Assembly (NCBI GenBank): GCA_028288625.1
Contig: JAQBNI010000028.1
Location: forward strand, 1 to 44,492
Length of the DNA: 44,492 nt
Reading direction: 5' to 3'
Source: Bacteroidota bacterium
GTDB lineage: Bacteria > Bacteroidota > Bacteroidia > Chitinophagales > JADIYW01
The notes below the pieces were generated by a model. That model worked only from the letters and a program-made list of their open reading frames with translations, searched no databases and was not told where the DNA came from. Each line of letters opens with the position of its first letter. The first letter of the stretch is position 1. Of this stretch, positions 1 through 31,762 are shown piece by piece. Both the position numbers and the translations under genes were made by a program.

Positions 1-36
1 TGTCATGAGTCGTGAGTCGTAAGTCGTGAGTCGTAA
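1..36. repeat. word-like direct repeat (gtcgtgagtcgtaa type)
   Basis: Tandem copies of the near-identical words agtcgtgagtcgtaag run across the 3' end and stop codon of the ThiE-like gene. Related words recur at 19150-19320. Confidence 0.8.
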
Positions 37-659: not shown

Positions 660-660
660 C

Positions 661-1167: not shown

Positions 1168-1219
1168 GTTTTTTGATTTTAATGTAAGATATTGGTTTTT
1201 TGATTTCTTTTATACCGTG

Positions 1220-2542
1220 ATGTCCAATAAAAAAATATTTTTTAATGATCGTTTTGCTTTGCTTTTTTGCTTTGCCGGTTTTATACTTTGCTACATCGCA
1301 TATCATCCCGGGTTTATGTTCATCGACAGCTTTGAACAATATCAGCAAGTGATTACACAAAAATATGACGATTGGCATCCACCGGTTATGGCAGGATGGT
1401 GGAGTATTCTAAACTACATGCACAAAGGTCCCGCCCTCATGCTTGCTTACCAGCTGGCGTGTTTGTGGATCAGCATTTTTCTTTTCTTAAAATTGATCCA
1501 TAATGATGTTTGGAAGGTGATGATCGCACTGCTTGCACTTTCGCCGTTCGTGCAAAACTTTGCCGGCTTTATTGTGAAGGATACCCAAATGGCATTGAGC
1601 TGGCTGCTTGCATTTACTATACTTTTAAATTATTCGTACAGGAATAAAAAAATTCCAACAGCAATAGCGATTCTTGTATTCCTGCTCCTAACGTATGGAA
1701 GCTGGGTCCGGACAAATGCATTTCCGGGTGTACTGCCTCTTGCCTTATGGTTTATATTCCTGCTACTAAAAAACAAAAGGAACAGTATAAAAATTTCAGC
1801 AACTATTGTGACGCTGGTTTTTTTAGCGGCAGGACATTGGATACAAAATATCGTTTTTAATACCGATGCAACATACCCTGAATACAAGCTTTACATGGAA
1901 GACATCACCGGCATTTATAAAAAGACCGGCGAAAACTTTTATCCGGAAGTTATTACAAGGCATAAAGATTTTGATATCGGGATGATGAAAAAACATTACA
2001 CGCCTGCAACGTTTGATGATGAATGGGAAAGTGATCCGCTGATCAGGGTGCCGGAAGGTACGGATTCAACTTCGCCGTCTGCGGGATTAGCGTGGAAGAA
2101 AGCAGTACGTGCGCATCCTTTTATTTATTTACAAAACAGGCTGGAAGGATTTATCTATTATTTAAGGATCAAAAACAGGACCGATTATTATTCTGTTTCG
2201 TATCCGCGCATAGATAAAAATCCGTGGGGATTTAGATTTCACGAAAACATCATTTCAAAAATATTTATTCGCCCTATCCGCTGGCAACATCATATGCCTT
2301 ACATGCGACCGTGGTTTTGGTTCTTTTTAAATATTGTATTGCTGTTTTTTATTTCAGGTATTCGCAACCTTGCTTTGCGGCAAGCCTTTGCAGCGCTGGT
2401 GTTTTCAGGATTATTCTACCAGGCATTAATGGTTTTTGTTTTTCCTGTGGATACGGACTTTAGATATTTTTACTGGAACTGTATTGCAGAGTCGCTGGCG
2501 ATTTGTTTGTGGGTGGGAGATAGAATGGAGAATAAGACGTGA
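1220..2542 (+). CDS. polytopic membrane protein, GT-C-like (DUF6020-like)
   Basis: A 440-residue integral membrane protein with roughly ten hydrophobic segments. After the first helix it carries HPGFMFIDSFEQYQQV followed by DDWHPP. This acidic/His loop pattern recalls DUF6020-type membrane proteins and GT-C glycosyltransferases, where such a first loop holds catalytic or metal-binding residues. A long soluble loop (about residues 215-320) lies between the helices. I chose the ATG at 1220 (MSNKKIFF) instead of the earlier alternative start at 1130, which would overlap the divergent DinB-like gene. It ends three bases before the DUF4238 gene, which runs towards it. Lipid-linked sugar transfer is only an inference. 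Confidence 0.6.
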   Translation: MSNKKIFFNDRFALLFCFAGFILCYIAYHPGFMFIDSFEQYQQVITQKYDDWHPPVMAGWWSILNYMHKGPALMLAYQLACLWISIFLFLKLIHNDVWKVMIALLALSPFVQNFAGFIVKDTQMALSWLLAFTILLNYSYRNKKIPTAIAILVFLLLTYGSWVRTNAFPGVLPLALWFIFLLLKNKRNSIKISATIVTLVFLAAGHWIQNIVFNTDATYPEYKLYMEDITGIYKKTGENFYPEVITRHKDFDIGMMKKHYTPATFDDEWESDPLIRVPEGTDSTSPSAGLAWKKAVRAHPFIYLQNRLEGFIYYLRIKNRTDYYSVSYPRIDKNPWGFRFHENIISKIFIRPIRWQHHMPYMRPWFWFFLNIVLLFFISGIRNLALRQAFAALVFSGLFYQALMVFVFPVDTDFRYFYWNCIAESLAICLWVGDRMENKT

Positions 2543-2545
2543 GAG

Positions 2546-3418
2546 TTAAGAATTAGTAACCTCTTTTATTAATCGTGTTTTTAAGTAATCAAACATACCT
2601 TCCTTTTTTTTTAAATTTCTATAAACATTGACAAAGCTTTCTAGATGTTGTTTACTAAATGAACCTATATATTTATCTGCTTGCTCTATTAATAATAGAT
2701 TTATTAATTTCGACTGTTCAACTGTTAAAGTATACTCTTTGTCTTTTAAACCTAAGTAGACTCTATATTTACTAATTGGGAATATCTTAATTGACTTAAG
2801 TAACTTTTCTGCAGTCAAAGGTATCATATCAAATATGATAGGATTATCTGAGATAAAATAAAAGGGTTCTTTAAAATCCAAAATCTTATAATGACCTGTT
2901 CCTTGGAGATTGATATCACTAGTTGTATCTTTTATAATTGAAAAAGCCAAAAATGATTTTTTCAATTTATCTATATCCTTATCCGATATTTGATTATTAA
3001 ATCCTCGCTCATCAACATTTAATAGGGTTTCAAGATGCTGAATCAGCCCTGTAGCATCTTCATTGACCTTAGCATTGTTAGGATATCTCCTCCAAAATAA
3101 AAACATAATAAAAACATCTAGAATACTAGTATTTTCCGTAGTTTCTATATCATCTACTAATTCTTCACGAATTTTTATAAAGTGGTTGGCAAAATAATTA
3201 TCATATTTGCTATACGCTTCTTCAAGTAGATCTAAACTTTGATTATTGATTGTAAAACTATTAATATCTTCCCCAAAAAATACGCTTTTTGGTGATCGTT
3301 TATTTTTCAAAATTTTATCTTGTTTTTTGTCATAGATCCAAAGCATATTATCACTATCATCAGTAAAACCCTTGATAAAAAATTTTGGTATATAATGATG
3401 TGTTTTTGAAATTGCCAT
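2546..3418 (-). CDS. DUF4238 domain-containing protein
   Basis: A 290-residue soluble protein starting with SKTHHYIPKFFIKGF, the hallmark N-terminus of DUF4238. Members of this family are of unknown biochemical role and appear sporadically in bacterial genomes. A second recognisable stretch is FYFISDNPI near residue 187, in the region where the family has a conserved SDNP motif. The gene is visibly AT-rich compared with the thiC gene next to it and forms a single-gene insertion between a membrane protein and the thiamine operon. A repeat copy sits just upstream at 3473-3501. A defence or toxin-like role is speculation based on patchy distribution. Confidence 0.75.
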   Translation of the reverse strand: MAISKTHHYIPKFFIKGFTDDSDNMLWIYDKKQDKILKNKRSPKSVFFGEDINSFTINNQSLDLLEEAYSKYDNYFANHFIKIREELVDDIETTENTSILDVFIMFLFWRRYPNNAKVNEDATGLIQHLETLLNVDERGFNNQISDKDIDKLKKSFLAFSIIKDTTSDINLQGTGHYKILDFKEPFYFISDNPIIFDMIPLTAEKLLKSIKIFPISKYRVYLGLKDKEYTLTVEQSKLINLLLIEQADKYIGSFSKQHLESFVNVYRNLKKKEGMFDYLKTRLIKEVTNS

Positions 3419-3472
3419 AATATTTGTAATAGTTAAGTTTCCTACTCTATTATTTTTTGTTCATTTTTTTTT

Positions 3473-3501
3473 AGTTCCTGAAACAAGTTCAGGATGACGG
3501 T
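3473..3501 (-). repeat. dispersed 29-bp repeat (GTCATCCTGAACTTG type), copy 1
   Basis: Read on the minus strand it begins ACCGTCATCCTGAACTTG and ends in TTCAGGA. A second copy in the opposite orientation lies at 29138-29166 and differs at only two or three positions. It can form a short hairpin (TCCTGAA/TTCAGGA). Confidence 0.75.
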
Positions 3502-3504
3502 AGA

Positions 3505-5489
<1,985 letters not shown>

Positions 5490-19322: not shown

Positions 19323-19409
19323 GGAGACGTGTCCGAGTGGCTGAAGGAGCATGCTTGGAAAGCATGTGTATGGGTAACTGTACCGTGAGTTCGAATCTCA
19401 CCGTCTCCG
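19323..19409 (+). tRNA. tRNA-Ser (anticodon GGA)
   Basis: The 87-base cloverleaf has acceptor GGAGACG pairing with CGTCTCC at 19402-19408 and discriminator G at 19409. The anticodon stem is CATGC/GCATG around loop TTGGAAA, giving anticodon GGA (codons UCC/UCU). A long variable arm (GTATGGGTAACTGTAC region) marks it as a class II serine tRNA, and GTTCGAATC is the T loop. CCA is not encoded. Confidence 0.97.
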
Positions 19410-19412
19410 CTC

Positions 19413-19450
19413 AAAAAAAGCGTTGTAAAAATTACAACGCTTTTTTATTT
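19413..19450 (+). terminator. intrinsic terminator after tRNA-Ser
   Basis: AAAAAAGCGTTGTAA, a two-to-three-base loop, TTACAACGCTTTTTT and a further T-rich tail. It may also serve the convergent T9SS gene on the minus strand, since the A/T flanks make it symmetric. Confidence 0.9.
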
Positions 19451-19469
19451 TTTAAATTACATTTAGAAA

Positions 19470-21146
19470 TCAATACTTCACGATTTTCTCTCTTATCATT
19501 TCCCAGTTAAAATTTATCAATAAAATGTAAGCGTTCGGTGACAAATCAGAAATATCGATCCTTTCTTCGTGGTTGCCCGCCGTCACAACTGATTGCACAA
19601 TTTGTTTTACTTTTCTTCCTGTCACATCATATATTTCCATAGAAACATTTTTAGCAGCCGGTAAATAATAATTAACGGTCAGTTCATTTCCTGCAGGATT
19701 CGGATAAATATTTACATCAAATAATTTTTTACCGGAAGAATGTACCGATGTAAAAAGAGGAAGATGTGTATTGTGATATCCCGCCGGATCTGTATACAAG
19801 CGGTATAAATTATATGCCAGTAAATAATCCAAACCATTCTGATCTGCCGGATGATTATTCGTATCGCTGATCGTATCGCGTGAATCAGGATTGCCAAACC
19901 AGCGGTTCGGCGCTTTCCATGACGGTCCGGGTACACAATCAGGGTTTCCATTATTAATGTTGATACATTCACCACTTGGCGGCGCCAACGTAAGCGCTTC
20001 ATACATCGTATCGAGCAATCTCAATTCGCGCGCACTGTCCAAGTGCAGGTTGTACAGGATGCCCTGTGTAAGCGGATAGATCCACAAACCATCCGCCATA
20101 GTATAATCAAAATTATAAGTTATAGTTTTTGTGTTGCTGGTAGACGCCAGTGAAATAAATAATCGCCTGTTATAAAAATGCGATACTCCGCCGAGGTGCC
20201 CGCAACAGTCATAAATATTTTTCAGAAGTACATCCACAATATTATAAGTATAATCGCCGAATGTTTTTCCCTGCGGGTTGATGAATGCCCATGTTTTATC
20301 AAACGCATACGCCCACGGCTGTGCCTGTCCGCCGCGAGCATTCCCAACAGATTCGCCACGCGGATTTTTCAGATCCCACGCATCCGTATAAAAACGCAGG
20401 ATCATTCTCCGCGCCGCTTCCGTTGCCAATGCACGTATATCTTCACCGTTATACATTACTCCCGCCGGTATGCATTTTTTCGCCATCGCCATACCATACA
20501 TCAGGTGAACCACCTGGTCCTGCGAAGTAAAATTCGTGATCATCGAATCCTTGCTGTATTGCCTTTCCACTTCCTCGCTTATCGTGCACATCGGTTTTTT
20601 TCCGGCGGGGACAGAATCATCCTGGAAAGAAAGATGCAAATCATTCGGTGCATCCTGTCGCAAAAAATATCCGAAATAATTCGGCTTGTGAAATATCTCG
20701 TTGGCTTCTGTTTCCAAACGGAAATAAGATTTCAATGCATAATACAATTCACGTGTAACCGAATCCGTATTTTGATGATTCAAATCGAGTAAGGCATATT
20801 CTGTAGAAAGTAATGCAATGTAATGACCAAGGTTACAAGTCTGATCACCGCCCGGAGATAAAATGCCAACACCATCCTGTATGTATTGCGGAGGATAATT
20901 CCACCAGAACCAATCGTTGCGGCAATCGCTGTACAGGTACTGCTCAATTGGCATACTAAAACCCGGCTGATCACCGATGCGTACAAAACGGTTTGAAAAG
21001 CGCTGACGGTAATTCCAGTATTTTTCGAGCAATACACTATCGGATGGATTGTGTGCCGTTGCATCATTCACAGAAAAAATCAAAAGAAAAACAAAGCTTA
21101 TTCTTTTGAGAAACGTAAATGCGTTGTTGTAAAATTCTAGTCTCAT
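19470..21146 (-). CDS. secreted protein with T9SS type A sorting domain, unknown catalytic domain
   Basis: A 558-residue secreted protein. An N-terminal hydrophobic signal (FLKRISFVFLLIFSVNDATAH) is followed by a large domain of about 440 residues rich in Trp, Tyr and His (DWFWWNYPPQY, CNLGHYIALLSTEY, GYFLRQDAPNDLH, NGLDYLLAYNLYRLY). The C-terminal 80 residues form a type A sorting domain (VNIYPNPAGNELTV to MIREKIVKY), so it should be exported by the type IX system and anchored or released. The helical, aromatic-rich central part recalls alpha/alpha-barrel glycan-active proteins, but I recognise no family. A TATCTTTC box lies about 20 bases upstream. Confidence 0.85.
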   Translation of the reverse strand: MRLEFYNNAFTFLKRISFVFLLIFSVNDATAHNPSDSVLLEKYWNYRQRFSNRFVRIGDQPGFSMPIEQYLYSDCRNDWFWWNYPPQYIQDGVGILSPGGDQTCNLGHYIALLSTEYALLDLNHQNTDSVTRELYYALKSYFRLETEANEIFHKPNYFGYFLRQDAPNDLHLSFQDDSVPAGKKPMCTISEEVERQYSKDSMITNFTSQDQVVHLMYGMAMAKKCIPAGVMYNGEDIRALATEAARRMILRFYTDAWDLKNPRGESVGNARGGQAQPWAYAFDKTWAFINPQGKTFGDYTYNIVDVLLKNIYDCCGHLGGVSHFYNRRLFISLASTSNTKTITYNFDYTMADGLWIYPLTQGILYNLHLDSARELRLLDTMYEALTLAPPSGECININNGNPDCVPGPSWKAPNRWFGNPDSRDTISDTNNHPADQNGLDYLLAYNLYRLYTDPAGYHNTHLPLFTSVHSSGKKLFDVNIYPNPAGNELTVNYYLPAAKNVSMEIYDVTGRKVKQIVQSVVTAGNHEERIDISDLSPNAYILLINFNWEMIREKIVKY

Positions 21147-21210
21147 AGTATTATTTATATGGATATAGAAAGATAAGACAAATCTTCTATGTTATTATCA
21201 AAACAAAATA

Positions 21211-22179
21211 CTAATAAGAGATATGATGGGAATACAAGGATTCAGGATGCCCTATTAATTTTGAATCAAATTTCAAAGATGCTACGACTGCTGTTTCTGC
21301 GCTATGTAAACGAAATGAGATTTGCCAACCTTCATTACAAACTAATAACAAAGTAGTCCTGGAGTTAGGTTTATATTCAAATCGTATAATTTCAGTTGGC
21401 AATTTTAATCGCTGAACTTCATTTAAAGGTTTGTTCTTAATTGTTCTGTTAAGTGTGCCATTTATATTAAACCCTAAAATCTCAACGCGCTTTTTTCCTT
21501 TAATAACTTTGTAAAAATCATGTTTGCCTAATAAATAACTTACAAGTGCTTCCGGGATATATGGGTTATTCTTATTTATAAACAACAATTCCTCCTTGAA
21601 TGCATTTAATACTGGCATATAAATTAATGTATGTTTATTGGTCACATTCTTCCATAACTCATTTTTTCCTTTCAAATATTGCAGTTCTCTAAAAATAGGA
21701 TTGATCTGTGAAAAATAATCCGAACGGCACTTTACTCCCACCCAATCTTTCCCAAAGTCTTTTATATTAGATAATCTGGAATGCTTCAGTGCTTTATGAT
21801 TGTTTTTTGCAGATATTCCTATCTCCCAATTTTGGTTCGAACGGATAAACAAAATATCTCTGACGTCTCCTGCTTGGCCTGCTGCATCAGGCATTAGCTG
21901 TAATTGAAGAATGTCAGACGTTGAAATATTATAGGTGAGTTTAGGCTCTAAACGAATAATGTGACTTATAGCAATACTAGCTGCCAACTGATATTTCTTT
22001 CTTTCTATATCGTTATACAAATTAAAGGAAGCTTCTGCACTTTTATAACTTGTGTCAGTAATTAAATTTATTTGGAAGTTTTCAGATAAAATTATTGTCG
22101 CTTCATTAATGAGCGCATATTCAAAAGCTTTACCGGCATCCTTCTTACTTTTATCTTTTCCGGTAATTTCTTTTGTCAT
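21211..22179 (-). CDS. HaeIII-family type II restriction endonuclease
   Basis: A 322-residue endonuclease. The core GQAGDVRDILFIRSNQNWEI then GISAKNNHKALKHSRLS matches my memory of the HaeIII family. So do YLLGKHDFYKVI, the NGTLN patch and the C-terminal WQISFRLHSA with LKFDSKLIG. Candidate active-site residues are D105 or D108, E119 and K125. ATG at 22179 is one base after the methylase stop; a TTG slightly upstream is less likely. HaeIII itself cuts GGCC, but the neighbouring methylase modifies adenine, so this enzyme probably has another target. The gene is AT-rich and probably acquired. Confidence 0.87.
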   Translation of the reverse strand: MTKEITGKDKSKKDAGKAFEYALINEATIILSENFQINLITDTSYKSAEASFNLYNDIERKKYQLAASIAISHIIRLEPKLTYNISTSDILQLQLMPDAAGQAGDVRDILFIRSNQNWEIGISAKNNHKALKHSRLSNIKDFGKDWVGVKCRSDYFSQINPIFRELQYLKGKNELWKNVTNKHTLIYMPVLNAFKEELLFINKNNPYIPEALVSYLLGKHDFYKVIKGKKRVEILGFNINGTLNRTIKNKPLNEVQRLKLPTEIIRFEYKPNSRTTLLLVCNEGWQISFRLHSAETAVVASLKFDSKLIGHPESLYSHHISY

Positions 22180-22180
22180 A

Positions 22181-22978
22181 TTAACCAAAAAAATTAGTAA
22201 TAGGATTAATATCCGGGCTGAAAATCAGAATTTCCTTTGAAGCTTTATCGTTCGACATCCCATATTTCCAATAAGGAATGATCATTTCAAATCCATTATA
22301 AAGGCTGTGAATTTCTTCGCATTCGTTATATGATAAAATCCATTTTTCTCTTTTCTTCAAGATCTTTGCAAGGCCACTGTGATCAAAATCTTTGTGGGCA
22401 TCCCCTTTCTTGCCATAAAGAGAATTCTTAATTAAGTAGGGAGGATCAAGATATGCAAAACTATTTTTATGAAGTATTAATGACTCTTTAAAATCTGCTT
22501 TTTTAATCTTCACATTTGGGTTATAAAAACTTTTTAACCGATTAATAGATGTTTGTGTAAATCTGGGATGATCAGGAGACATACCTCCCGATAATGTGGA
22601 ACCGGAAAAAGAGGACCTGTTTAGAACATAGTAAACCGCCGCTCTTTCTATTTTAGATTTAAACTTTGTTTGTGTTTTTTGCAATTCATAAAAACTCTGT
22701 TTAGTCAAAGGAAAATAATCACTAACCGCATTAGAAAGTTCCACAGGATGGCTAAATACACACTGCCAAAATTCAACGAGTGGCTTAAAAATATCATATC
22801 CGTAAATTTTAACTCCTTTAGCCGCTAAAGAAAGTTCTATAGAACCTCCTCCAAAAAATGGAGAAACAAGTTCTGTGATATCTGATGGGAAATAGCGGGT
22901 GATTATTTCTACGGCTCGAGTTTTACCGCCTGGGTAACGCAGTAGAGAATTTTCGCTGTACTCAACATTTTTAATCAT
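22181..22978 (-). CDS. D12-class N6-adenine DNA methyltransferase
   Basis: A 265-residue Dam-type (D12 class) methyltransferase that should protect the endonuclease's target by methylating adenine. The S-adenosylmethionine-binding entry LLRYPGGKTRAV is at residues 12-23. Motif I is SPFFGGGSIEL (39-49). The catalytic motif IV is DPPY at 178-181. It precedes the HaeIII-family endonuclease by one base in the same orientation, the usual arrangement for a modification gene expressed first. The upstream gap of about 400 bases is AT-rich with no gene, and no controller (C) protein gene was recognised. Confidence 0.93.
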   Translation of the reverse strand: MIKNVEYSENSLLRYPGGKTRAVEIITRYFPSDITELVSPFFGGGSIELSLAAKGVKIYGYDIFKPLVEFWQCVFSHPVELSNAVSDYFPLTKQSFYELQKTQTKFKSKIERAAVYYVLNRSSFSGSTLSGGMSPDHPRFTQTSINRLKSFYNPNVKIKKADFKESLILHKNSFAYLDPPYLIKNSLYGKKGDAHKDFDHSGLAKILKKREKWILSYNECEEIHSLYNGFEMIIPYWKYGMSNDKASKEILIFSPDINPITNFFG

Positions 22979-23385
22979 AATAATCCCACGCTAACTTAGT
23001 TATTTTTTACTGATTTAAAAGCATTTTCAACACGTTCCAGTACTATCTTTTTCTAAACATTTTTATCAAGAACGTATAGTCCGCAAAAAAATCTAATCGC
23101 AATTGATCCCTCTCAATTAATTATTCATTTAAAACACAAAATTAAATTACCAAATATAATAGGCTGAGGTCGTGTATCTTATATCTGAATTTTCACTTAA
23201 TTTAAGAGAAAAATTCATGCGAATCTTATAATCTTATATTGAAGTTTTATAATAACTGCTACAACCAAAATACTCAATTTTGTATTAGATAATTTTATAA
23301 CATTAAAAATAACCGATGCAAATAAGATTACACTTAACTGGAAAGAAAGGCATGATGCATATTGATAACTTAAAAAATTACGGTT
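22979..23385. other. AT-rich gap upstream of the restriction-modification pair
   Basis: About 400 bases with no convincing gene on either strand. An out-of-frame 60-codon open frame at 23316 was rejected. It must hold the methylase promoter, but no clear TAnnTTTG box or operator palindrome was seen. Confidence 0.5.
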
Positions 23386-23619
23386 ATGTTACGATTACTA
23401 GAAGTTCAAAAGATTGCAAGGGAACATGGTATGGATCTGATACTATCAGGAAGCGGTCAATTCACAAAATTTGTAAAAGCATATGCTATGGCGCATGAAA
23501 TTGTAGTGAAGGCTTTAAATATTGAAGAACCTGACGATACTAAGGAAAATTTAGCTGCACGCATCCAATTTGAAATATTGGTGACAAAGTATACTAATTT
23601 TATATTAGGCGTAAGATGA
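23386..23619 (+). CDS. small hypothetical protein
   Basis: A 77-residue open frame starting at ATG 23386. It has balanced composition and amphipathic helices (KFVKAYAMAHEIVVKALNI and AARIQFEILVTKYTNFIL), which suggests a real protein rather than chance. I recognise no family and see no signal peptide or DNA-binding motif. It is divergent from the methylase and is followed by a GC-rich hairpin at 23659-23690 that could be its terminator. It could be accessory to the restriction-modification pair, but there is no direct evidence. Confidence 0.45.
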   Translation: MLRLLEVQKIAREHGMDLILSGSGQFTKFVKAYAMAHEIVVKALNIEEPDDTKENLAARIQFEILVTKYTNFILGVR

Positions 23620-23658
23620 TACTCCACAAGATATTCCTTGAAAAATTTCTTTCATAAA

Positions 23659-23696
23659 AGGGAGAGCATTCCGATTCCGGATGCTCCCCCTTATTT
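23659..23696 (+). terminator. candidate terminator after the 77-residue ORF
   Basis: An imperfect hairpin (GAGCAT-T-CCG/CGG-ATGCTC, extended by GGG/CCC) followed by CCTTATTTAT. Confidence 0.45.
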
Positions 23697-23828
23697 ATAC
23701 CTTTTTATACTGACATATTTTCTGCAACACTCTATTTTTTCACTTCGGCATAAATGTTGCAATTAATAAAAAACCTTATTTATTATAAGGTTCATGCCAT
23801 ATTGTCGAAAATAATATAACTTGTAACC

Positions 23829-26285
23829 ATGTTCCAAAAAATCCAGTTGTCCAATATTATCGAAGAAGATGTAGAAATGGTGCCCTTATTGTCGATCGAA
23901 GAAGATGATAATACAAACAGCGATAATCTTCCAAAATCAGTACCTATCTTACCTTTAAGAAATAACGTGCTTTTCCCCGGAGTTGTCATTCCTATCTCTG
24001 TCGGAAGGGAAAAATCCATCAAAGCGGTCAAAAAAGCTTATAAGCAAAACCGGTATATAGGTGTTATTGCGCAGCGCGATACAACTATCGAAGAACCGGA
24101 ACCGAATGACCTGTATACCATCGGCTGCACTGCCAAGATCATTAAAATGTTGTCCATGCCGGATGGTGGAAATACGCTTATCCTGCAAGGTGTAAAACGA
24201 TTTGTTGTAAAACAAATGCATTCTTCCGAACCGATCATTGAAGCAGAAGTAGAATACCTGAACGATATTCCAATGAAGGATCTGCAGCAGGAAAAAGCGA
24301 TGATGGGGAATCTAAAAGAGATGGCTAACAAAATTATTGAGCTGTCGCCGAATATTCCAAATGAAGCGAAGATCGTTTTGAATAATATCAACAGTATAAA
24401 ATTTCTCGCCAACTTTATTACTTCCAACCTGAATATAGAATTGCAGGATAAGCAGCAGATCCTCGAAACAAATGATGCACATGAACGCGTGCAGATGGTT
24501 TTAAAACATCTTCACCAGGAATTGCAATTGCAGGAGCTGAAAGCAAACATCAACGATAAAACGAGAACTGATATCGACAAACAGCAGCGCGATTATTTTT
24601 TAAACCAGCAATTGCGCGCGATCCAGGAAGAGTTGGGCGGCGATATGTACCAGGAGGAAGTGAATCGCCTGAAAGAAAAAGCAAAAGAAAAAAAGTGGAG
24701 TGAAGCGGTTGCAAAATCTTTTGAAAAAGAGATCGGGAAATTGCAGCGTATCAATCCTGCTGCGGCAGAATATTCGGTGATCCTGAATTATCTCGACTTA
24801 ATGGTTGAGCTTCCATGGAATGAAGTGACGAAGGATAATTTCGATTTGAAGCGCGGAAAAAAAATCCTCGATGAAGACCATTATGGATTGGATAAGATCA
24901 AAGATCGTATTCTGGAATATCTCGCGGTATTAAAATTAAAAGGTGATATGAAGTCGCCGATCCTTTGTTTTATTGGTCCTCCGGGCGTTGGAAAAACTTC
25001 TCTCGGGAAAAGTATCGCCCGCGCTCTTGACCGGAAATATGTTCGCATGTCACTCGGCGGCTTGCATGATGAAAGCGAAATTCGCGGACACCGCAAAACA
25101 TATATCGGCGCGATGCCCGGAAGAATTATTCAATCGCTCAAAAAAATTCAATCTTCAAATCCTGTTTTTATTTTGGATGAGATCGATAAAGTTGGAAAAG
25201 ATCATCGCGGTGATCCGTCTTCAGCTTTGCTCGAAGTTTTAGATCCGGAACAAAACACAACATTCTACGATAACTTTTTAGAACTCGAATATGATCTCTC
25301 CAAAGTATTGTTTATTGCAACGGCAAATAATTTAAGCGAGATACAGCCTGCTTTGCGAGACCGGATGGAAGTGATCTTCTTAAGCGGTTATTCGACGGAA
25401 GAAAAAATTGAGATCGCGAAAAAACATTTGATCTCCAAACAGCGTGAAGCGCACGGTTTAAAAGCCTCGCAGATCAAGGTGAATGATAAAGCGCTGCAGC
25501 ATCTCATTCAATTTTATACCTACGAAAGTGGCGTGCGCGAATTGGAAAGGATGATCGCATCTATTATGCGGAATATTGCGAAAAGTGTTGCGACGGAAGA
25601 AAAATATAATGCGGCTATAGCGCCGGAAGATATTGAACGCATTCTCGGCAAACCAAAATACAACCATGATATCTACACGGAACATAATCCTGCCGGTGTG
25701 GCGATTGGTTTGGCGTGGACACCGATGGGCGGCGATATTTTATTTATCGAATCTACGGTAAGCAAGGGAAAGGGACGATTGACAATTACCGGCAATCTCG
25801 GCAACGTGATGAAGGAATCTTTCAATACGGCATTGACGTATCTACAATCCAAAGCAGACAAACTGCAAATTGCAAAAGAAGCATTTACAGAATGGAATTT
25901 GCATATACATGTTCCGGAAGGCGCTATTCCAAAGGACGGACCGAGCGCGGGCATTGCGATTTTAGCTGCGCTGACTTCTTTATTTACACAGCGAAGAATA
26001 AAACCATATACTGCATTAACCGGTGAAATCACTTTACGCGGAAAGGTGTTGCCTGTCGGCGGCATCAAGGAAAAAATTCTTGCGGCGAAACGTTCAGGTA
26101 TCAAAGAAATTATTTTATCGAAGACGAATGAAAAAGATGTGGAAGAAGTTCCTGCAGATTTTATAAAAGGTTTGAAGTTTCATTATGTTGAAACAATGGA
26201 AGAAGTGCTGGAAATGGCGCTGGAAAAAAAGCTCGTAAAAGAACCGTTGAAATTTAATTTAAACGGAAGTGCTGCTGAAAAATAA
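23829..26285 (+). CDS. lon: ATP-dependent protease Lon
   Basis: An 818-residue Lon protease, a cytoplasmic AAA+ serine protease degrading misfolded and regulatory proteins. The N-terminal substrate-binding domain (VPILPLRNNVLFPGVVIPISV) is followed by a coiled-coil region and the AAA+ module with GPPGVGKTSLGKS. ARALDRKYVRMSLGG and FILDEIDKVGKDHRGDP follow. The protease domain has PKDGPSAGIAI with catalytic Ser706 and GGIKEKILAA with Lys749. Length and domain order are normal. It is expected to be heat- or stress-regulated in general, but no sigma-32-like site was identified. Confidence 0.97.
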   Translation: MFQKIQLSNIIEEDVEMVPLLSIEEDDNTNSDNLPKSVPILPLRNNVLFPGVVIPISVGREKSIKAVKKAYKQNRYIGVIAQRDTTIEEPEPNDLYTIGCTAKIIKMLSMPDGGNTLILQGVKRFVVKQMHSSEPIIEAEVEYLNDIPMKDLQQEKAMMGNLKEMANKIIELSPNIPNEAKIVLNNINSIKFLANFITSNLNIELQDKQQILETNDAHERVQMVLKHLHQELQLQELKANINDKTRTDIDKQQRDYFLNQQLRAIQEELGGDMYQEEVNRLKEKAKEKKWSEAVAKSFEKEIGKLQRINPAAAEYSVILNYLDLMVELPWNEVTKDNFDLKRGKKILDEDHYGLDKIKDRILEYLAVLKLKGDMKSPILCFIGPPGVGKTSLGKSIARALDRKYVRMSLGGLHDESEIRGHRKTYIGAMPGRIIQSLKKIQSSNPVFILDEIDKVGKDHRGDPSSALLEVLDPEQNTTFYDNFLELEYDLSKVLFIATANNLSEIQPALRDRMEVIFLSGYSTEEKIEIAKKHLISKQREAHGLKASQIKVNDKALQHLIQFYTYESGVRELERMIASIMRNIAKSVATEEKYNAAIAPEDIERILGKPKYNHDIYTEHNPAGVAIGLAWTPMGGDILFIESTVSKGKGRLTITGNLGNVMKESFNTALTYLQSKADKLQIAKEAFTEWNLHIHVPEGAIPKDGPSAGIAILAALTSLFTQRRIKPYTALTGEITLRGKVLPVGGIKEKILAAKRSGIKEIILSKTNEKDVEEVPADFIKGLKFHYVETMEEVLEMALEKKLVKEPLKFNLNGSAAEK

Positions 26286-26346
26286 AGAGTAAACCAAAAG
26301 CATTTGCCAAGCTTAATAACACGGCTTCAACAGCTAAGAAGTTGAA

Positions 26347-27441
26347 TTATAAATTTCCAAATAATTCTGCGTGCAATTTATGTTCAAAATTAGCTATTGC
26401 ATTATTTAACATCGGAAAAAATTGATTTGACCATTCCTCTAAAATTGAAAATGGATTGTAATAATTTGATGTACTCTCCAGATAGGTGATAGTTTCAGCT
26501 ACACCAAATGCCCAAGCTTCACAATTGCAAATGGATTCGTTAGAATAATGACTATAGGGTTGATACCTATGGTAAAAATTTTTCTGTAATCGTGTTATCC
26601 AATGTATGTGTTCCCTATTCCTAAATTTGCAGTCTCCACAAAGTTTAATGCATCTTCTATCTAAATAATGAAATAACTGCATAAGAATTTCAGGATTTGG
26701 AGAAAATCCATCTATTAATATATCTAATCCACTTATTAATTTTTTATAATACTGGTACTTAATATCTTTAGGAAAAGTATCTATCAAATCCAGAATTGCT
26801 CCTTCTATATATTTATATTCATTACTGAGATTAAAATGTATTAGGTCATCGTTAATGAAACCAGAAACCGCGATGATTCGTTTAGAAATTATATCTCTTC
26901 CAATTCCATTTCTCCAATCTTGGGCTAAGTGAAAGGATTCATTTCTTAACCAACCAATAAATTGTAGTAATCTTCGTCCTCTTGTTTTCACTGATTCGTG
27001 AATTATAGGTTTTGTTAGAATTTCGATAAGAGAATCCACAGTGACAGAAATTATTGAGCCAACATTGTTGATGTTATATGTTTTATAACAGGCAACTCCT
27101 AAAAAATCAGTTGGAATTCGAAAACTCTCCTTATCTGGAACTATTAAACCACATTTTGAACGTCCTATTATTCCGGAAAATAGGCCATATTCATAAAGAA
27201 CATTATCTCTCATTTGAGTATGCTTTTGGTCTCGGATAATTGTTTCGTCATCTAATGTCCCTATTAATATAGCACCATCTATGTTCAAAGAAATTTGTTC
27301 AAGTTCCTGTAATGGTGACCTATCAAGTTTAAAGCAATCGAACCAAGGAAGAGGGGCTATTCCTTTATTCTTTAATTCAGAAATTACCTTATATGCTATT
27401 TCTTTTCCTTCTGAAGAGGAACCTATAAAGACTCTATTCAT
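26347..27441 (-). CDS. TIR-like (PF10137/CAP12-type) protein with Cys-containing C-terminal domain
   Basis: A 364-residue protein. Residues 1-120 match the predicted nucleotide-binding TIR-like domain: RVFIGSSSEGKEIA, DGAILIGTLDD, MRDNVLYEYGLFSGIIGR and IPTDFLGV. In TIR NADases the helix glutamate is catalytic; here it is E84. Residues 150-364 form a helical domain I do not recognise. It carries cysteines C264, C268, C271 and C305, C307 with nearby histidines, suggesting metal binding. The same TIR type serves as an NAD-degrading effector in CBASS and Pycsar defence, but no cyclase or other partner is adjacent. AT-rich, convergent with lon and likely acquired. Confidence 0.8.
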   Translation of the reverse strand: MNRVFIGSSSEGKEIAYKVISELKNKGIAPLPWFDCFKLDRSPLQELEQISLNIDGAILIGTLDDETIIRDQKHTQMRDNVLYEYGLFSGIIGRSKCGLIVPDKESFRIPTDFLGVACYKTYNINNVGSIISVTVDSLIEILTKPIIHESVKTRGRRLLQFIGWLRNESFHLAQDWRNGIGRDIISKRIIAVSGFINDDLIHFNLSNEYKYIEGAILDLIDTFPKDIKYQYYKKLISGLDILIDGFSPNPEILMQLFHYLDRRCIKLCGDCKFRNREHIHWITRLQKNFYHRYQPYSHYSNESICNCEAWAFGVAETITYLESTSNYYNPFSILEEWSNQFFPMLNNAIANFEHKLHAELFGNL

Positions 27442-27533
27442 ACTAATAATTTATTTGCTTCATTATTTATTTACAGAAGGAGATGGCTCTTTAGATTATA
27501 AACACATTAGCAACTTAATATTTTCAATCAAAT

Positions 27534-27881
27534 TTATTTCAATTTTAAAAAATCACCATCCACGATAAAAAGTCTTACGCCATTCCCTGAACTTGTCCAG
27601 TGAGAACTCAATTCATCCGAAACCTGGTAACTCATTCCTTTCGATAATTTCATCACACTGCCGTCTGCAAGTTCCGTATCCATTTCTCCTTCTATGCAAT
27701 AAATAATATGTCCTTTCTGACACCAGTGATCTGCTTTGTAGTTCTTTGAATATTCCACCAACCTTATTCTTAACCCATCGAACTGAATAGTCTTCCAGTG
27801 AGCCAATCCGGTTTCTCCTTTGTGTTCAGTGGCAGCAATGTTATCCCAATCTGTAATTTGAAAAGGAATATTCTTTTCCAT
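27534..27881 (-). CDS. small cupin (DHCW-motif type)
   Basis: A 115-residue single-domain cupin. The metal-site-like core ADHWCQKGHIIYCIEGEMDT (His52, His58 region and Glu) and the later SHWTSSGNGVRLFIVDG match the small DHCW-motif cupin family, here in the variant DHW-C. The function of the family is not established, and a metal-bound small-molecule or sensor role is an inference. It starts two bases after the stop of the T9SS gene transcribed in the opposite order (upstream gene on the same strand ends at 27884). Confidence 0.75.
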   Translation of the reverse strand: MEKNIPFQITDWDNIAATEHKGETGLAHWKTIQFDGLRIRLVEYSKNYKADHWCQKGHIIYCIEGEMDTELADGSVMKLSKGMSYQVSDELSSHWTSSGNGVRLFIVDGDFLKLK

Positions 27882-27883
27882 GA

Positions 27884-29098
27884 TTAATTTTTAATAAACG
27901 AAGCCGATCCTTCCTTTCCTTCGATATGAATAATGTACAAACCTACAGGAAATGCTTTTGTATTGATGATCGTTTGAAGGTCATTTAATTTTATGCTCAT
28001 TACATTTTTTCCTGTTGCATCGGTGATCATGCAAGTTGAACCTAACAGATCATTATTTAACCTAATGGTTACAAATTCATGTGCAGGATTTGGAAAGATG
28101 GAAAATTCATTTTGTGATTTGTGAACCGAAGTGTTTGTCACAATATCTTTTAAGTAACCACTGAGGAAACTGGAAAGATCGAACGTATGCAGCTGTTGCG
28201 CATTTCCTGCCTGGCTCTCGTTTGACGCATAGTATTTCAGCCCGTTCGCAGTAGCGATGCCTTCCATTTGGTGGAAGGGAAGATTGACGGATATCTTTCG
28301 CTTGTTTCCAAAAGCAAAATCGTTGTTCCTGAAATCATACAATAAATAAAAGAAAGGCTGCAGAAGGTTAGAATAGCCGCAGATTACCGCCAGCCTTTTT
28401 GATTTGAGGTAGGTAATGCCGGTAGCTAATCCGCCGATATTAATGGTGGAGCGCAATGCGGCAACATAAGTGCCCGGTGTTTTCGGCATCGCGTAAATAC
28501 TTGTTTTATTCGAGATCCATTGCTTGGTAAATAAATAAATGCTGTCGGAAGAAACCACGAACGCTTCGCAATCGAAGTCGGTGCTGTTGCTTGACTTGGG
28601 TGTGAAATCCGTTTGGTTAGAATAAGAAAACCAGATCGTATCGATGACCGGCGTATTTAATAAGAGCGAATTTTTCTCCACTCTTAAAATATGCAGGTCG
28701 GTGCGGTTGCCACTGCTGTTGTTTCCGAAGTCGCCTACATAAACATAATTAGAATCCTGCGAGATCTCTTCCCAATCTTTGTTGACAGTATTGGTGAGCG
28801 TGTAAGACTGAAGTATAGCCGCAGTTGCAGTATCCAGCGCGTACAGCTTGTTATCTGTATCATCGTTGTGCGACCAGATATTATTGTTCCAGTGAATCAA
28901 CCCGGAAGTCTCCGTCAACAACGCGGATAAATTTTTTGATGTTAGCGGAGAAATATTTGCGCCGTTGTAAGTACAGCTGCCGTCGTTTATAGTAGCGGAT
29001 GCATTATAATTATTTGCTTTCGGATCGGTACATCCGGATTGCGCATGCGCAATATGCAACAAGAAAAATAACAGGGAAATCAGGAAGGGATTTTTCAT
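27884..29098 (-). CDS. secreted beta-propeller-like protein with T9SS sorting domain
   Basis: A 404-residue secreted protein. A signal peptide (MKNPFLISLLFFLLHIAHAQ) is followed by a small Cys module (CTDPKANNYNA then DGSC), often found in Bacteroidota surface proteins. Next is a domain of about 270 residues with repeated strand patterns (HNDDTDNKLYALD, VYVGDFGNN, FDCEAFVVSSDSIYLF, HQMEGIATA) like a beta-propeller. The C-terminus is a type A sorting domain (FSIFPNPAHEFVTI to ASFIKN). The propeller resembles the family of the 42964-43836 protein in its D-x-E-A/E-G-I-A pattern. The ligand is unknown. Confidence 0.82.
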   Translation of the reverse strand: MKNPFLISLLFFLLHIAHAQSGCTDPKANNYNASATINDGSCTYNGANISPLTSKNLSALLTETSGLIHWNNNIWSHNDDTDNKLYALDTATAAILQSYTLTNTVNKDWEEISQDSNYVYVGDFGNNSSGNRTDLHILRVEKNSLLLNTPVIDTIWFSYSNQTDFTPKSSNSTDFDCEAFVVSSDSIYLFTKQWISNKTSIYAMPKTPGTYVAALRSTINIGGLATGITYLKSKRLAVICGYSNLLQPFFYLLYDFRNNDFAFGNKRKISVNLPFHQMEGIATANGLKYYASNESQAGNAQQLHTFDLSSFLSGYLKDIVTNTSVHKSQNEFSIFPNPAHEFVTIRLNNDLLGSTCMITDATGKNVMSIKLNDLQTIINTKAFPVGLYIIHIEGKEGSASFIKN

Positions 29099-29102
29099 AG
29101 AG

Positions 29103-29110
29103 CAAAGATA
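29103..29110 (-). promoter_or_regulatory. -7 box immediately upstream of the 404-residue T9SS gene
   Basis: TATCTTTG on the minus strand matches TAnnTTTG exactly and ends four bases before the ATG at 29098, predicting a leaderless or near-leaderless transcript. The preceding ATTCATAATTC is shared with the upstream region of the 648-residue T9SS gene (31767-31785). Confidence 0.45.
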
Positions 29111-29137
29111 AGAATTATGAATAGGTTTTACCCAAGG

Positions 29138-29166
29138 ACCGTCATCCTGAACTTGATTCAGGATCT
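29138..29166 (+). repeat. dispersed 29-bp repeat (GTCATCCTGAACTTG type), copy 2
   Basis: Starts ACCGTCATCCTGAACTTG and ends TTCAGGATCT. It is the inverted-orientation partner of 3473-3501. Confidence 0.75.
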
Positions 29167-29183
29167 AAAAGGTATTAATACAC

Positions 29184-29239
29184 AACCTCCGCTTCAAGCG
29201 TCTCCCTTGAAGTATATTATTTGAATCTTTAAGCGTGGG
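29184..29239 (-). repeat. double-hairpin 3'-end repeat, copy 1
   Basis: Carries acctccgcttcaagcgtctc, cttgaagta and a later ttgaatctttaagcg. It is nearly identical to 29741-29810 but with mismatches that weaken the hairpins. It lies just downstream of the STAS-like gene stop. Confidence 0.75.
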
Positions 29240-29243
29240 CTGT

Positions 29244-29642
29244 TTATGAATTTTCTAACAGGCTCAGCCATTCGCGTGCATCATTTACATTATTAAAAAA
29301 TTGAATAGCCAGTTTATTTTTATCGACTTTATATGAAATGCTCTCTACAGCAACTTTATTGAAATAATGATCAGGTTGTACAATAGCAATTACTTTAAAT
29401 CCATAGTCAGTGGCACGGGGAAGAAAATCTGTATCCAGCCATTCCTGATCTTCTCTTGCAATAATGGTCATATCTTTAATATCCGCCAATACTTTGTATG
29501 CATTATTTTTAATTAAAGTATTAAGCATAAGCTCTGTTCCTTGTTTAAATTCTCTACTTGTAGCATAGCCACGCCATTCCATTACAACAGAGTCGATAAC
29601 GCTATCAAAATAAATATTATAAACTTTTGTCGTTGCTTCCAT
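29244..29642 (-). CDS. SpoIIAA/STAS-like protein
   Basis: A 132-residue cytoplasmic protein. The pattern VLADIKDMTIIAREDQEWLDTDFLPRA followed by VIAIVQPDHYFNKVAVESI resembles the STAS/SpoIIAA-like proteins common in Bacteroidota. No phospho-acceptor serine in the classical anti-sigma-antagonist position could be confirmed, so a regulatory role is uncertain. It stands alone between two copies of the double-hairpin repeat, one at each end of the gene. Confidence 0.6.
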   Translation of the reverse strand: MEATTKVYNIYFDSVIDSVVMEWRGYATSREFKQGTELMLNTLIKNNAYKVLADIKDMTIIAREDQEWLDTDFLPRATDYGFKVIAIVQPDHYFNKVAVESISYKVDKNKLAIQFFNNVNDAREWLSLLENS

Positions 29643-29740
29643 CTTTTTAATTTAAACCTAAATTTAAAAATTATTATAAAAAGATGATATGAATTTTTCG
29701 TTTGAAGTTAAGTGTTGACAGTTTCGAAAACTCTACTCTG

Positions 29741-29810
29741 ACCTCCGCTTCAAGCGTCTCGCTTGAAGTAAATTATGTTTGAATCTTTAAGCGGGACGCT
29801 TAAAGCGGTG
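29741..29810 (-). repeat. double-hairpin 3'-end repeat, copy 2
   Basis: Two perfect hairpins: gcttcaagcg-tct-cgcttgaag and ctttaagcg-gga-cgcttaaag, joined by taaattatgtttgaat. It ends six bases from the stop of the 648-residue T9SS gene, so on the minus strand it lies in that gene's 3' untranslated region. Confidence 0.8.
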
Positions 29811-29815
29811 TGAGA

Positions 29816-31762
29816 TTATTCTTTCACAAATTTCTTTGTCCATGTTCTGTCTTTCTGCTTTAGCTGCATGATGTAAATTCCCTTGGAGAAATTACCGGTT
29901 GACAGTTCATAGTTATTGGTTGACAGTATAACATTCGCAACCACTCTACCTGTCATATCCGTAACGGTAGCGGTAGCACCAATCATATTTTCTTTAATGC
30001 TAATGTCAATAGAGTTGTTTACGGGATTGGGGTAGATTTTCACATCGCTGTTTTGGATATTGACTATTCCTGTCGAGGTTCCGGTACGGAGGTCGAGGCC
30101 CGAATTAACTATGACACTATCGCCGAAGTTATCCTTTATAACCAGCAGCATGTTGTAATGTCCGGTAGCAATACCGGTGGTATTCCAGTTTACCATTGTG
30201 CCCTGGGTGACCGGTGTGGTGTGGATGGCGTCGGTGATCGTCCAGGTGTTGGTGCCGGCTAGCTGGTAGGCTATGTAGTAACTGGCAAAGCTCATCAGGT
30301 GGCTTGTGGGACCGCGTAAAATATAAGCCGAACCGGTTAACGAAACGATGCTGCCCGAGTCAGCGGCTTGAGGAGAAAGCATTCCTACCCAAACAACAGC
30401 GCCGTCATAGGCAATGGGTGGAGATATGGTTGGAGTTTGCACCATAATTAACATGCCGCTGTCAACAGCATAACCGGTTGCCGCGCTTATGGAACAAAAA
30501 CCTACCATCGCAATACCTCCCTGCTCGGCACGTACCGGGCAATTAAAGCCGCAACCCGAGGCGCTTTGAAAACCAGAAGCATTTGCCCAGAAATAGCCGC
30601 CGGAGCCATCGGCAAACATAGACGAGCAGCTGGTGTGAGCGTGTCCGCCGGTGCCTATTTCACCCAATATGCAGCTTGTAATATCTACATGAGTGGTATC
30701 GGTAGGGTATACGCCCCAGGTTTGAACCGAGCAATTGGTGAGTTGAAAAGTGCGGTCGGAAAAAAATGTGGGCGAGGTGACATAGTTTGAATTATCTACC
30801 AAACCGTGCGCAGTGCCGGTTTCAGTGCCTTTGTAAATGACAGCCACCGACCGGATGGTGGAGTTGCTGATATGTACGTTGGTTTGGTCTTCCGGCATAA
30901 GCGCCCAATTGACTTTTTTGATGTTATCCAGTTCGATCGTATATCGTAAACCGTTGACACCGGGTGAGTCTGGCCCGATGGCATAGTGCTGCACGTTATA
31001 GCCGTTGGGGAAGGTTTTCGTTAAGCCCGCACCACGCTGAATACGGTGCCAGACGATAACTGTATCCACATTTTTGAGACTCAACAGGACAGAATCGGTA
31101 GCTACTATTTCGCCCAACAGGTTGGCGGTGTCGACTATGAATTTTGAATGACCGTTTAACCCGATAGTTGAAGTGAAATCGGTAAAATGCACGTTTTGAA
31201 GATTGATCGTTGCAGAATCACCCGTTCCGATCATGTGTGCAAGTCCTGCAAAATCAAGGGTGCAGTGTTTCATCTGTATCAGTCCATGACGGTCGGCTTG
31301 CAAGCCCCACTGATAAAAGTACTGCTGCGGAAAATACAAGGTCGAATTGGCAGCGATCACCTTTCCTTCACCTGTTGCTATCAAAAAGCCGGATATGGTG
31401 GCATATGCGTTGTTGAAAATAAGCACGCCATCATTGATCACTGCAACCCATCCGTTATGTTGCCAGGTACCCGTAACGATCAAGGTATCATGTGGTGTTG
31501 CACCAACATATAAAATATTCTGGCTTCCGGAGACAGATGACTTTGCTGCGATTTGCCCGGGCTTGCCTTCTTGCAGTAAATGATAAATGCCGGAAGGGCG
31601 TGAATTAGCTGGCTGACCCAATGCACGGGATTGCGGCATTGGGTTATCTTTTGTGTCCCATGCTTTTTGCAATGTTTCGTTGATGAGTTGCTGAGGGAAG
31701 GGCGATTGTGCCTCGGCGCGCTGACAGAAAAATAAAAAGAAAATTATGAAAGGATATTTCAT
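29816..31762 (-). CDS. secreted beta-helix-like protein with T9SS sorting domain
   Basis: A 648-residue secreted protein. The signal peptide MKYPFIIFFLFFCQRAEAQ leads into a domain of about 400 residues made of short repeating strands separated by Asn/Thr/Gly turns (GVLIFNNAYATISGF, GEGKVIAANSTLYF, HCTLDFAGLAHMIG, SNSTIRSVAV-like). This suggests a right-handed beta-helix, a fold of adhesins and polysaccharide-active proteins. An Ig-like segment and a type A sorting domain (VKIYPNPVNNSIDI to WTKKFVKE) follow. No catalytic motif was recognised. The sorting domain contains NNYELSTGN, encoded by a word-like repeat. Composition is less AT-rich than the neighbouring genes. Confidence 0.82.
   Translation of the reverse strand: MKYPFIIFFLFFCQRAEAQSPFPQQLINETLQKAWDTKDNPMPQSRALGQPANSRPSGIYHLLQEGKPGQIAAKSSVSGSQNILYVGATPHDTLIVTGTWQHNGWVAVINDGVLIFNNAYATISGFLIATGEGKVIAANSTLYFPQQYFYQWGLQADRHGLIQMKHCTLDFAGLAHMIGTGDSATINLQNVHFTDFTSTIGLNGHSKFIVDTANLLGEIVATDSVLLSLKNVDTVIVWHRIQRGAGLTKTFPNGYNVQHYAIGPDSPGVNGLRYTIELDNIKKVNWALMPEDQTNVHISNSTIRSVAVIYKGTETGTAHGLVDNSNYVTSPTFFSDRTFQLTNCSVQTWGVYPTDTTHVDITSCILGEIGTGGHAHTSCSSMFADGSGGYFWANASGFQSASGCGFNCPVRAEQGGIAMVGFCSISAATGYAVDSGMLIMVQTPTISPPIAYDGAVVWVGMLSPQAADSGSIVSLTGSAYILRGPTSHLMSFASYYIAYQLAGTNTWTITDAIHTTPVTQGTMVNWNTTGIATGHYNMLLVIKDNFGDSVIVNSGLDLRTGTSTGIVNIQNSDVKIYPNPVNNSIDISIKENMIGATATVTDMTGRVVANVILSTNNYELSTGNFSKGIYIMQLKQKDRTWTKKFVKE
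29893..29935. repeat. word-like repeat within a T9SS sorting domain
   Basis: ggttgacagttcatagttat then tggttgacagt. It is in frame and encodes the NNYELSTGN part of the sorting domain. Confidence 0.65.

Follow-up and report, generated by a model that had tools for sequence, protein, structure and literature searches.

The window analysed here, meaning the whole 44,492 nt stretch of Bacteroidota bacterium contig JAQBNI010000028.1 (assembly GCA_028288625.1, forward strand, positions 1-44,492), carries a restriction-modification (R-M) gene pair in which a D12-fold DNA methylase gene is followed by a HaeIII-family restriction endonuclease gene. We confirmed both genes on the minus strand at the positions given in Table 1. 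A single base separates the methylase stop codon (TAA) from the likely ATG of the endonuclease, so the two genes, methylase first, probably form one operon and would be co-transcribed. The ATG at 22179 is the likelier endonuclease start; the TTG at 22188 given by the open-reading frame (ORF) tool yields 21211-22188, a 325 aa product with three residues more. By analogy with a characterised system of Caldicellulosiruptor bescii, we consider it highly probable that the pair is a Type II R-M operon of the CbeI/M.CbeI kind, a GGCC-cutting pair with a D12-fold N4-cytosine (m4C) methylase. Throughout, L numbers denote loci or stretches compared and G numbers genomes sampled, G000 being the host genome.

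Table 1. Features of the window at and around the R-M gene pair
Feature	Position	Strand	Remarks
HaeIII-family (PF09556) restriction endonuclease	21211..22179	-	322 aa from ATG; Pfam, PADLOC, AlphaFold2 model
D12-fold DNA methyltransferase, M.CbeI-like	22181..22978	-	265 aa; LRYPGGK and DPPY
GGCC site within endonuclease gene	21876..21879		one of seven in the 44.5-kb window
GGCC site within methylase gene	22372..22375		one of seven in the window
tRNA-Ser	19323-19410
Stretch between tRNA-Ser and lon-proximal block	19411..23740		missing at the same place in three same-genus stretches

The endonuclease is a full-length member of the HaeIII family, matching the Pfam profile RE_HaeIII (PF09556) from position 1 to 298 of 298 (E = 7.7e-96, 321 bits, cut-off 25) and the PADLOC REase_II model PDLC03430 at 333 bits, whilst the methylase matches MethyltransfD12 (PF02086) with E = 1.3e-29 and 104 bits. 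Both Pfam matches are far beyond chance and bear out the pairing described in the initial annotation, a HaeIII-family endonuclease beside a D12 methylase with DPPY and RYPGGK. A phmmer comparison of the endonuclease with solved structures returned three matches, the best at an E-value of only 0.24. HinP1I, an enzyme which cuts GCGC, was the sole outstanding solved match to the AlphaFold2 model (pLDDT 89.7, 24 sequences; Foldseek E = 4.6e-3; VIA Z 8.8, root mean square deviation (rmsd) 4.4, 219 aligned), a comparison that leaves room for folds outside the matches listed. On account of this standout match the endonuclease is probably of the PD-(D/E)XK type, a fold also predicted for a HaeIII-like enzyme in PMC7559349. 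The closest relatives of the endonuclease, in L011 (61% identical) and L012 (55%), adjoin cytosine-5 (m5C) methylases which align end to end with M.HaeIII (411 and 421 bits). These neighbours are one pointer to GGCC as the cut site; the other is the depletion of GGCC in the host genome, which does not follow the gene across relatives.

Among solved structures, both sequence and predicted fold place the DPPY-bearing methylase nearest to M.CbeI. Its best sequence match is 7M6B (E = 4e-33, vs. 5.8e-9 for DpnM and 3e-4 for E. coli Dam), which is M.CbeI of C. bescii, described as an alpha-class N4-cytosine methyltransferase (PMC8616854). It shares 35% identity with M.CbeI and 34-35% with two cyanobacterial plasmid methylases, vs. 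20% with E. coli Dam, 22% with T4 Dam and 24% with a DpnII-type sequence. M.CbeI is likewise the best Foldseek match of its predicted structure (pLDDT 87.0, 19 sequences; TM 0.74/0.80, rmsd 3.1), followed by E. coli Dam entries (TM by query 0.65-0.68, rmsd 4.9-5.6) and DpnM (0.69, rmsd 4.8), and its score against the NCBIfam dam model TIGR00571 (93 bits) is under the cut-off of 114.85. Three blocks, SGxxxSGGxS, RFT/RFN and YGxxGxxHxxF[D/E/N]H, scored by loose patterns made for this analysis, are common to the window methylase, M.CbeI and their relatives, with YGxxGxxHxxFDH and RFT in the window enzyme as in M.CbeI. All three are missing from the Dam, T4 Dam, DpnII-type, Campylobacter, Mesorhizobium, S-PM2 and P-RSM6 sequences, and L104 lacks the first; an FNVPF/FTTPF block, present in E. 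coli Dam, T4 Dam and the DpnII-type sequence, is absent from the window methylase. As the blocks of the window enzyme align beside that of Dam, they may well be the ones which read the DNA bases.

In a tree of 31 methylase sequences, built without DpnM, the window enzyme is sister to that of L014 (98/95) within a sub-branch (100/98) that also holds the enzymes of L015, L017 and L006, a Bartonella plasmid enzyme and, on a long branch, that of phage S-PM2. A fork (90/89) joins this sub-branch to M.CbeI and the DmtB-like sequences, whilst Dam, T4 Dam and the DpnII-type sequence sit across a 99/97 branch, with M.CbeI on the window's side. Seven terminal branches are long, and a program warning about joins among them makes the outer order less sure than the window clade. 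We regard the window methylase as a near relative of M.CbeI and DmtB, outside their inner clade, which probably works alike, and by this analogy it is very probably an alpha-class N4-cytosine methylase of GGCC.

The initial annotation had argued from the D12 fold to N6-adenine methylation (m6A) and from there to an adenine-containing site, that is, to a true N6-adenine methylase beside an endonuclease which has shifted to a matching sequence. In favour of this, D12/DPPY enzymes are mostly m6A methylases, and automatic annotation names such genes DNA adenine methylase. M.CbeI was itself annotated as 'D12 class N6 adenine-specific' and carries DPPY, yet according to PMC3425538 it blocks CbeI, a HaeIII isoschizomer encoded next door, gives the sequencing signature of N4-methylcytosine in GGCC and is 57% identical to Anabaena DmtB, which methylates the inner cytosine of GGCC. 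A D12/DPPY methylase is therefore no proof of an adenine in the site. This precedent, the blocks unlike those of Dam and DpnII, a methylase nearer M.CbeI than Dam, and the M.HaeIII homologues beside endonucleases 55-61% identical to the window's all stand against an adenine-containing site. So does the host genome, in which GGCC is depleted and no adenine-containing palindromic tetramer or 5-base gapped palindrome tested is depleted to a like degree, the next being CTAG at an observed/expected ratio (O/E) of 0.30. We therefore set the adenine-containing site aside as very unlikely; the protecting enzyme most probably methylates a cytosine, and no shift away from GGCC, the cut site to be expected, is required.

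Partner types were compared across 89 HaeIII-family endonucleases (frames of at least 250 aa) drawn from the window, loci from several searches and one Nostoc plasmid; the broken copy in L084 was excluded, L001 and L007 are the window itself, and the Nostoc entry was labelled by hand from its annotation. M.HaeIII-type neighbours, some in pieces (e.g. L039, L041 and L067), were found for 77 of the 89, a figure in which L009/L059 and L010/L072, identical entries from two collections, count twice. This agrees with the expectation in the initial annotation that a cytosine-5 methylase is the usual partner. Six endonucleases have a D12 neighbour (the window, L006, L014, L015, L017 and L092) and six have neither, although three of the latter (L005, L073 and L081) have an m5C gene or fragments farther off. 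The same D12 and HaeIII-family pair thus recurs at L006, L014, L015 and L017, and by public annotation the Nostoc plasmid p057_E carries a distant HaeIII-family enzyme (23.5% identical) beside a DmtB-like D12 methylase in reverse gene order. Among the best 80 of 437 loci, which were picked by likeness to A1 and are not an unbiased sample, a D12 partner is present in three (L014, L015 and L017).

This recurrence bears on a further explanation, in which GGCC is still the target of the endonuclease but a methylase encoded elsewhere gives the protection, the D12 methylase being a passenger of other specificity. Contig C19 of the host does encode further methylases, with a TdeIII-family endonuclease fragment next to one and a GHKL-ATPase protein next to another. 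However, the pairing at four further loci and with a DmtB-like enzyme in Nostoc, together with the single base between the two genes, speaks for a partner rather than a passenger, and the TdeIII site, which we take to be GGNCC, differs from GGCC. A search of the host genome (3.71 Mb in 161 contigs, completeness listed as 100%) revealed no DNA cytosine-5 methylase, the sole PF00145 match (21.8 bits) lying in an ORF read as an RsmB-type RNA methylase, and we rejected the idea that a cytosine-5 methylase encoded at another place in the host gives the protection. A passenger methylase is accordingly improbable.

The endonuclease and methylase trees conflict. In the endonuclease tree the window groups with L011 and L012, which have m5C partners, and with L013 (100/99), to the exclusion of the D12-partnered L014, L015 and L017; in the methylase tree, by contrast, L014 is the sister of the window. 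Clade tests used 28 of the 89 endonucleases, leaving out the long branches L003, L006, the second L013 copy and L092 as well as many similar sequences. They rejected both a single clade of the four D12-partnered endonucleases (p-AU 0.00076) and a clade of the window, L014 and L015 (p-AU 0.00084), with p values that are optimistic, the groups having been named after the tree was first seen. A larger quick endonuclease tree requires five partner-type changes, at least two of them forced by starred branches, and its D12 label is hardly more clustered than when shuffled (64 of 500 shuffles as low). The conflicting trees and the rejected D12 clade therefore demonstrate that m5C-type and D12-type partners have been exchanged in this endonuclease lineage. 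As a methylase with another site could not protect the host, the exchange argues that both types act on the endonuclease's site, and since m5C-type methylases act on GGCC, that site would be GGCC. The initial annotation had offered as an alternative that the partnership was reassembled and the cut site changed; the reassembly is supported, but the exchange most likely kept the cut site and altered only the chemistry of the mark. Our literature search returned no title or abstract opening on partner exchange in the HaeIII family, which is not proof of its absence from print.

GGCC is extremely rare in the host. In a sample made up of the window and 40 stretches (647,674 nt), with expectation taken from di- and trinucleotides, 65 sites were observed vs. 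809 expected (O/E 0.08), the lowest value of all tetramers, with CTAG second. A synonymous-codon shuffle of 317 mechanically found ORFs of at least 250 aa gave 46 observed vs. 583 expected (z -33). This depletion identifies GGCC as a long-restricted site in this lineage. Neither GATC (O/E 1.36) nor GGNCC (0.98) is avoided in the host sample, and GGNCC, considered as a depleted site for the TdeIII-family fragment on C19, was rejected on that value. Whether or not they have a HaeIII-type system, none of the 15 other genomes sampled has an O/E for GGCC as low as that of the host (their range is 0.18-0.82), and a rule by which presence of such a system predicts GGCC depletion fails across these 15. 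Clostridium thermocellum is, for its genome size, not visibly GGCC-poor despite its GGCC system, for which 12,192 motifs are listed (PMC6791906). Site avoidance is tied in PMC4687349 to the lifespan of a system, and that article includes a section on traces of lost systems. The R-M genes hold two of the seven GGCC sites of the window in 1,768 nt, near the compositional expectation of ~1.3 (GC content about 0.33). This suggests tentatively, the sites being only two, that the purge preceded the arrival of the pair; the corresponding genes of L011, L012, L014, L015 and L017 hold 1, 0, 0, 0 and 0 sites. The second-ranked CTAG shows an O/E of 0.05-0.53 in 10 of the 15 other genomes and is not among the three lowest listed in the other five, and GATC, over-represented in the host, is under-represented in the five same-genus genomes G395-G399 (0.24-0.56).

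That same-genus genomes without the endonuclease are also GGCC-poor (0.18-0.69) suggests that GGCC systems may have come and gone in this lineage, and would suit a pair which itself no longer works or is in decay, left over from earlier GGCC restriction. The reading frames are, however, both intact and match almost all of their family profiles, and a genome search found no stop inside the endonuclease gene, so that a relic seems the least probable of the alternatives, and the two enzymes would both be active.

Several observations weigh against an operon of the CbeI/M.CbeI kind. DPPY is diagnostic of neither m6A nor m4C. The methylase, at 35% identity to M.CbeI, falls outside the inner clade of M.CbeI and the DmtB-like sequences in a separate sub-branch in which no characterised member was seen among the 31 sequences of the tree. 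The fork joining this sub-branch to the M.CbeI branch has support of only 90/89, with several sequences long-branched, and the phage S-PM2 enzyme groups within the sub-branch yet lacks the common blocks. CbeI itself is likened to the window endonuclease by published description. GGCC depletion, moreover, does not follow the gene pair. Seven genomes with no endonuclease match (G395-G399, G403 and G405) have O/E values of 0.18, 0.41, 0.43, 0.44, 0.44, 0.48 and 0.69, six with an m5C-partnered endonuclease (G404, G406, G427 and G449-G451) have 0.36, 0.39, 0.44, 0.44, 0.50 and 0.60, and the two with a D12-partnered endonuclease, G448 and G270, have 0.50 and 0.82, the samples being small for G397 (20 kb), G396 (50 kb) and G270 (50 kb). 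GGCC is thus under-represented with and without the system, and the purge therefore cannot be attributed to the window enzyme.

An operon of the CbeI/M.CbeI kind nevertheless remains our preferred explanation. In the mechanism we propose, the D12-fold methylase would place a methyl group on the exocyclic N4 of a GGCC cytosine, presumably the inner one by analogy with M.CbeI and DmtB, and the HaeIII-family endonuclease would cut unmethylated GGCC in incoming DNA. The pair is an ordinary, well-precedented case, a new example of its kind in a separate methylase sub-branch, with the partner exchange and the extreme GGCC loss as side findings of interest. On a broader scale, we lean towards a history in which one HaeIII-type endonuclease lineage repeatedly swapped methylases of unrelated fold and chemistry (M.HaeIII-type m5C and D12-type m4C) while GGCC was kept, and successive GGCC systems purged the host lineage to about one-twelfth of expectation. 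An annotation trap is also corrected here: next to a HaeIII-family endonuclease, a D12/DPPY methylase labelled 'adenine' is better taken for an N4-cytosine enzyme specific for GGCC. The exchange provides a natural test of how an endonuclease deals with protective marks of two different chemistries at one site, and the near-absence of GGCC makes this host useful for asking how long-lived restriction reshapes a genome.

Relatives of the window methylase also occur in other settings. At E <= 1e-20 one is present in 16 of 395 genomes of the phylum, host included, and among these, besides the window, only G270 shows a HaeIII-family gene next to it, within a short stretch; M.CbeI outscores the window enzyme as a match for all of the other 14. 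Eight of these 14 lie near a conserved protein (L100:404-1492, 363 aa, with neighbours in L097-L099, L101, L105, L106 and L108), the L100 copy of which, the sole one scanned, has no Pfam match and scores 258 bits against the PADLOC Type II endonuclease model PDLC03572. This is perhaps a further endonuclease family using D12-type GGCC protection. Window-type methylases, 39-55% identical, also occur on viral contigs (L173-L201), in keeping with a role in shielding the virus from restriction. None of 80 viral loci with a related methylase gave a tblastn match to the window endonuclease, though many of the loci are short and very distant members (Nostoc-like, 23.5% identical) could escape such a search. 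A methylase 50-52% identical is present on the Bartonella harrusi plasmid pBHa, where neither annotation nor phmmer revealed a HaeIII-family gene in positions 1-5482 and 25500-29892 of the record. The pair of L015 (methylase 62%, endonuclease 52% identical) lies on a contig titled 'uncultured archaeon' (CABMII010000001.1), reflecting either transfer between domains or mis-binning. In L013:3938-7429 the gene of a close relative of the window endonuclease has no methylase adjoining it but neighbours another HaeIII-type system, which includes an m5C methylase and a Vsr gene (PF03852) and whose protection it perhaps shares.

The R-M pair lies between tRNA-Ser and lon together with a 558-aa gene with a secretion-tail domain and a small ORF. 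In three of six same-genus stretches compared (L143, L149 and L152) the tRNA-Ser homologue and the lon block are separated by only 45-197 nt, free of any match to the 558-aa gene or the R-M pair, and these genes and the small ORF therefore occupy an apparent insertion in the window. L151 has 1.5 kb with a different ORF at this place, and L141 and L150 gave no tRNA match. The junction looks like an insertion spot, and the 264-aa ORF which it holds in L151 (2556-4036) contains HPFMDGNGR, presumably a Fic-like motif. Just past lon, at 26347-27441 on the minus strand, lies the gene of a TIR-domain protein resembling the CAP12/Pycsar effectors, with matches to PF10137 (80.7 bits) and to TIR effector models of PADLOC, and hence a second likely defence gene near the R-M pair. 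Elsewhere in the host genome, contig C19 (L318 of G000) carries a TdeIII-family endonuclease fragment (profile positions 129-241 of 242) beside a 533-aa methylase (PADLOC PDLC03249, 750 bits) at L318:3548-6351. An operon-like run at L318:8011-13780 on the same contig is possibly an unusual R-M or defence system. It encodes a methylase of 473 aa with TSPPY, a protein of 832 aa that has two matches to GHKL-type ATPases and matches Type II endonuclease models weakly, and a protein of 618 aa with no Pfam or PADLOC match at the thresholds used.

Compared with known systems, the pair shares its endonuclease family (PF09556, of which the window holds the single match in the host genome) with HaeIII/M.HaeIII, and its closest endonuclease relatives have M.HaeIII-type partners, but its own partner is a D12 methylase and not a cytosine-5 methylase (PF00145). 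No Vsr gene is present among the neighbouring window genes scanned, whereas some m5C loci have one (L013 by Pfam, L073 and L077 by eye). The GATC-specific m6A methylases Dam, DpnM and T4 Dam have the same D12 fold (Foldseek TM by query 0.57-0.69), and the first and last of them also carry DPPY. What sets the window enzyme apart from Dam, T4 Dam and the DpnII-type sequence is the low identity, the different blocks and the position in the tree, to which its sub-cut-off dam score is added. M.Ssp6803II of Synechocystis is, we presume, a further D12-type enzyme. It makes GGm4CC (PMC6560206), and like DmtB (PMC3425538) it is described as having the GGCC specificity and m4C product proposed for the window enzyme; a DmtB-like Nostoc plasmid methylase adjoins an annotated HaeIII-family endonuclease as in the window, but M.Ssp6803II is reported as a chromosomal methylase with regulatory effects (PMC6560206). 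The closest parallel is CbeI/M.CbeI of C. bescii, in which a HaeIII-isoschizomer gene likewise adjoins that of a D12-fold methylase with DPPY, and no solved protein is closer to the window methylase than M.CbeI; the system differs in the distance between the two methylases, which lie in separate sub-branches, and in that the endonuclease group of the window mostly pairs with M.HaeIII-type methylases.

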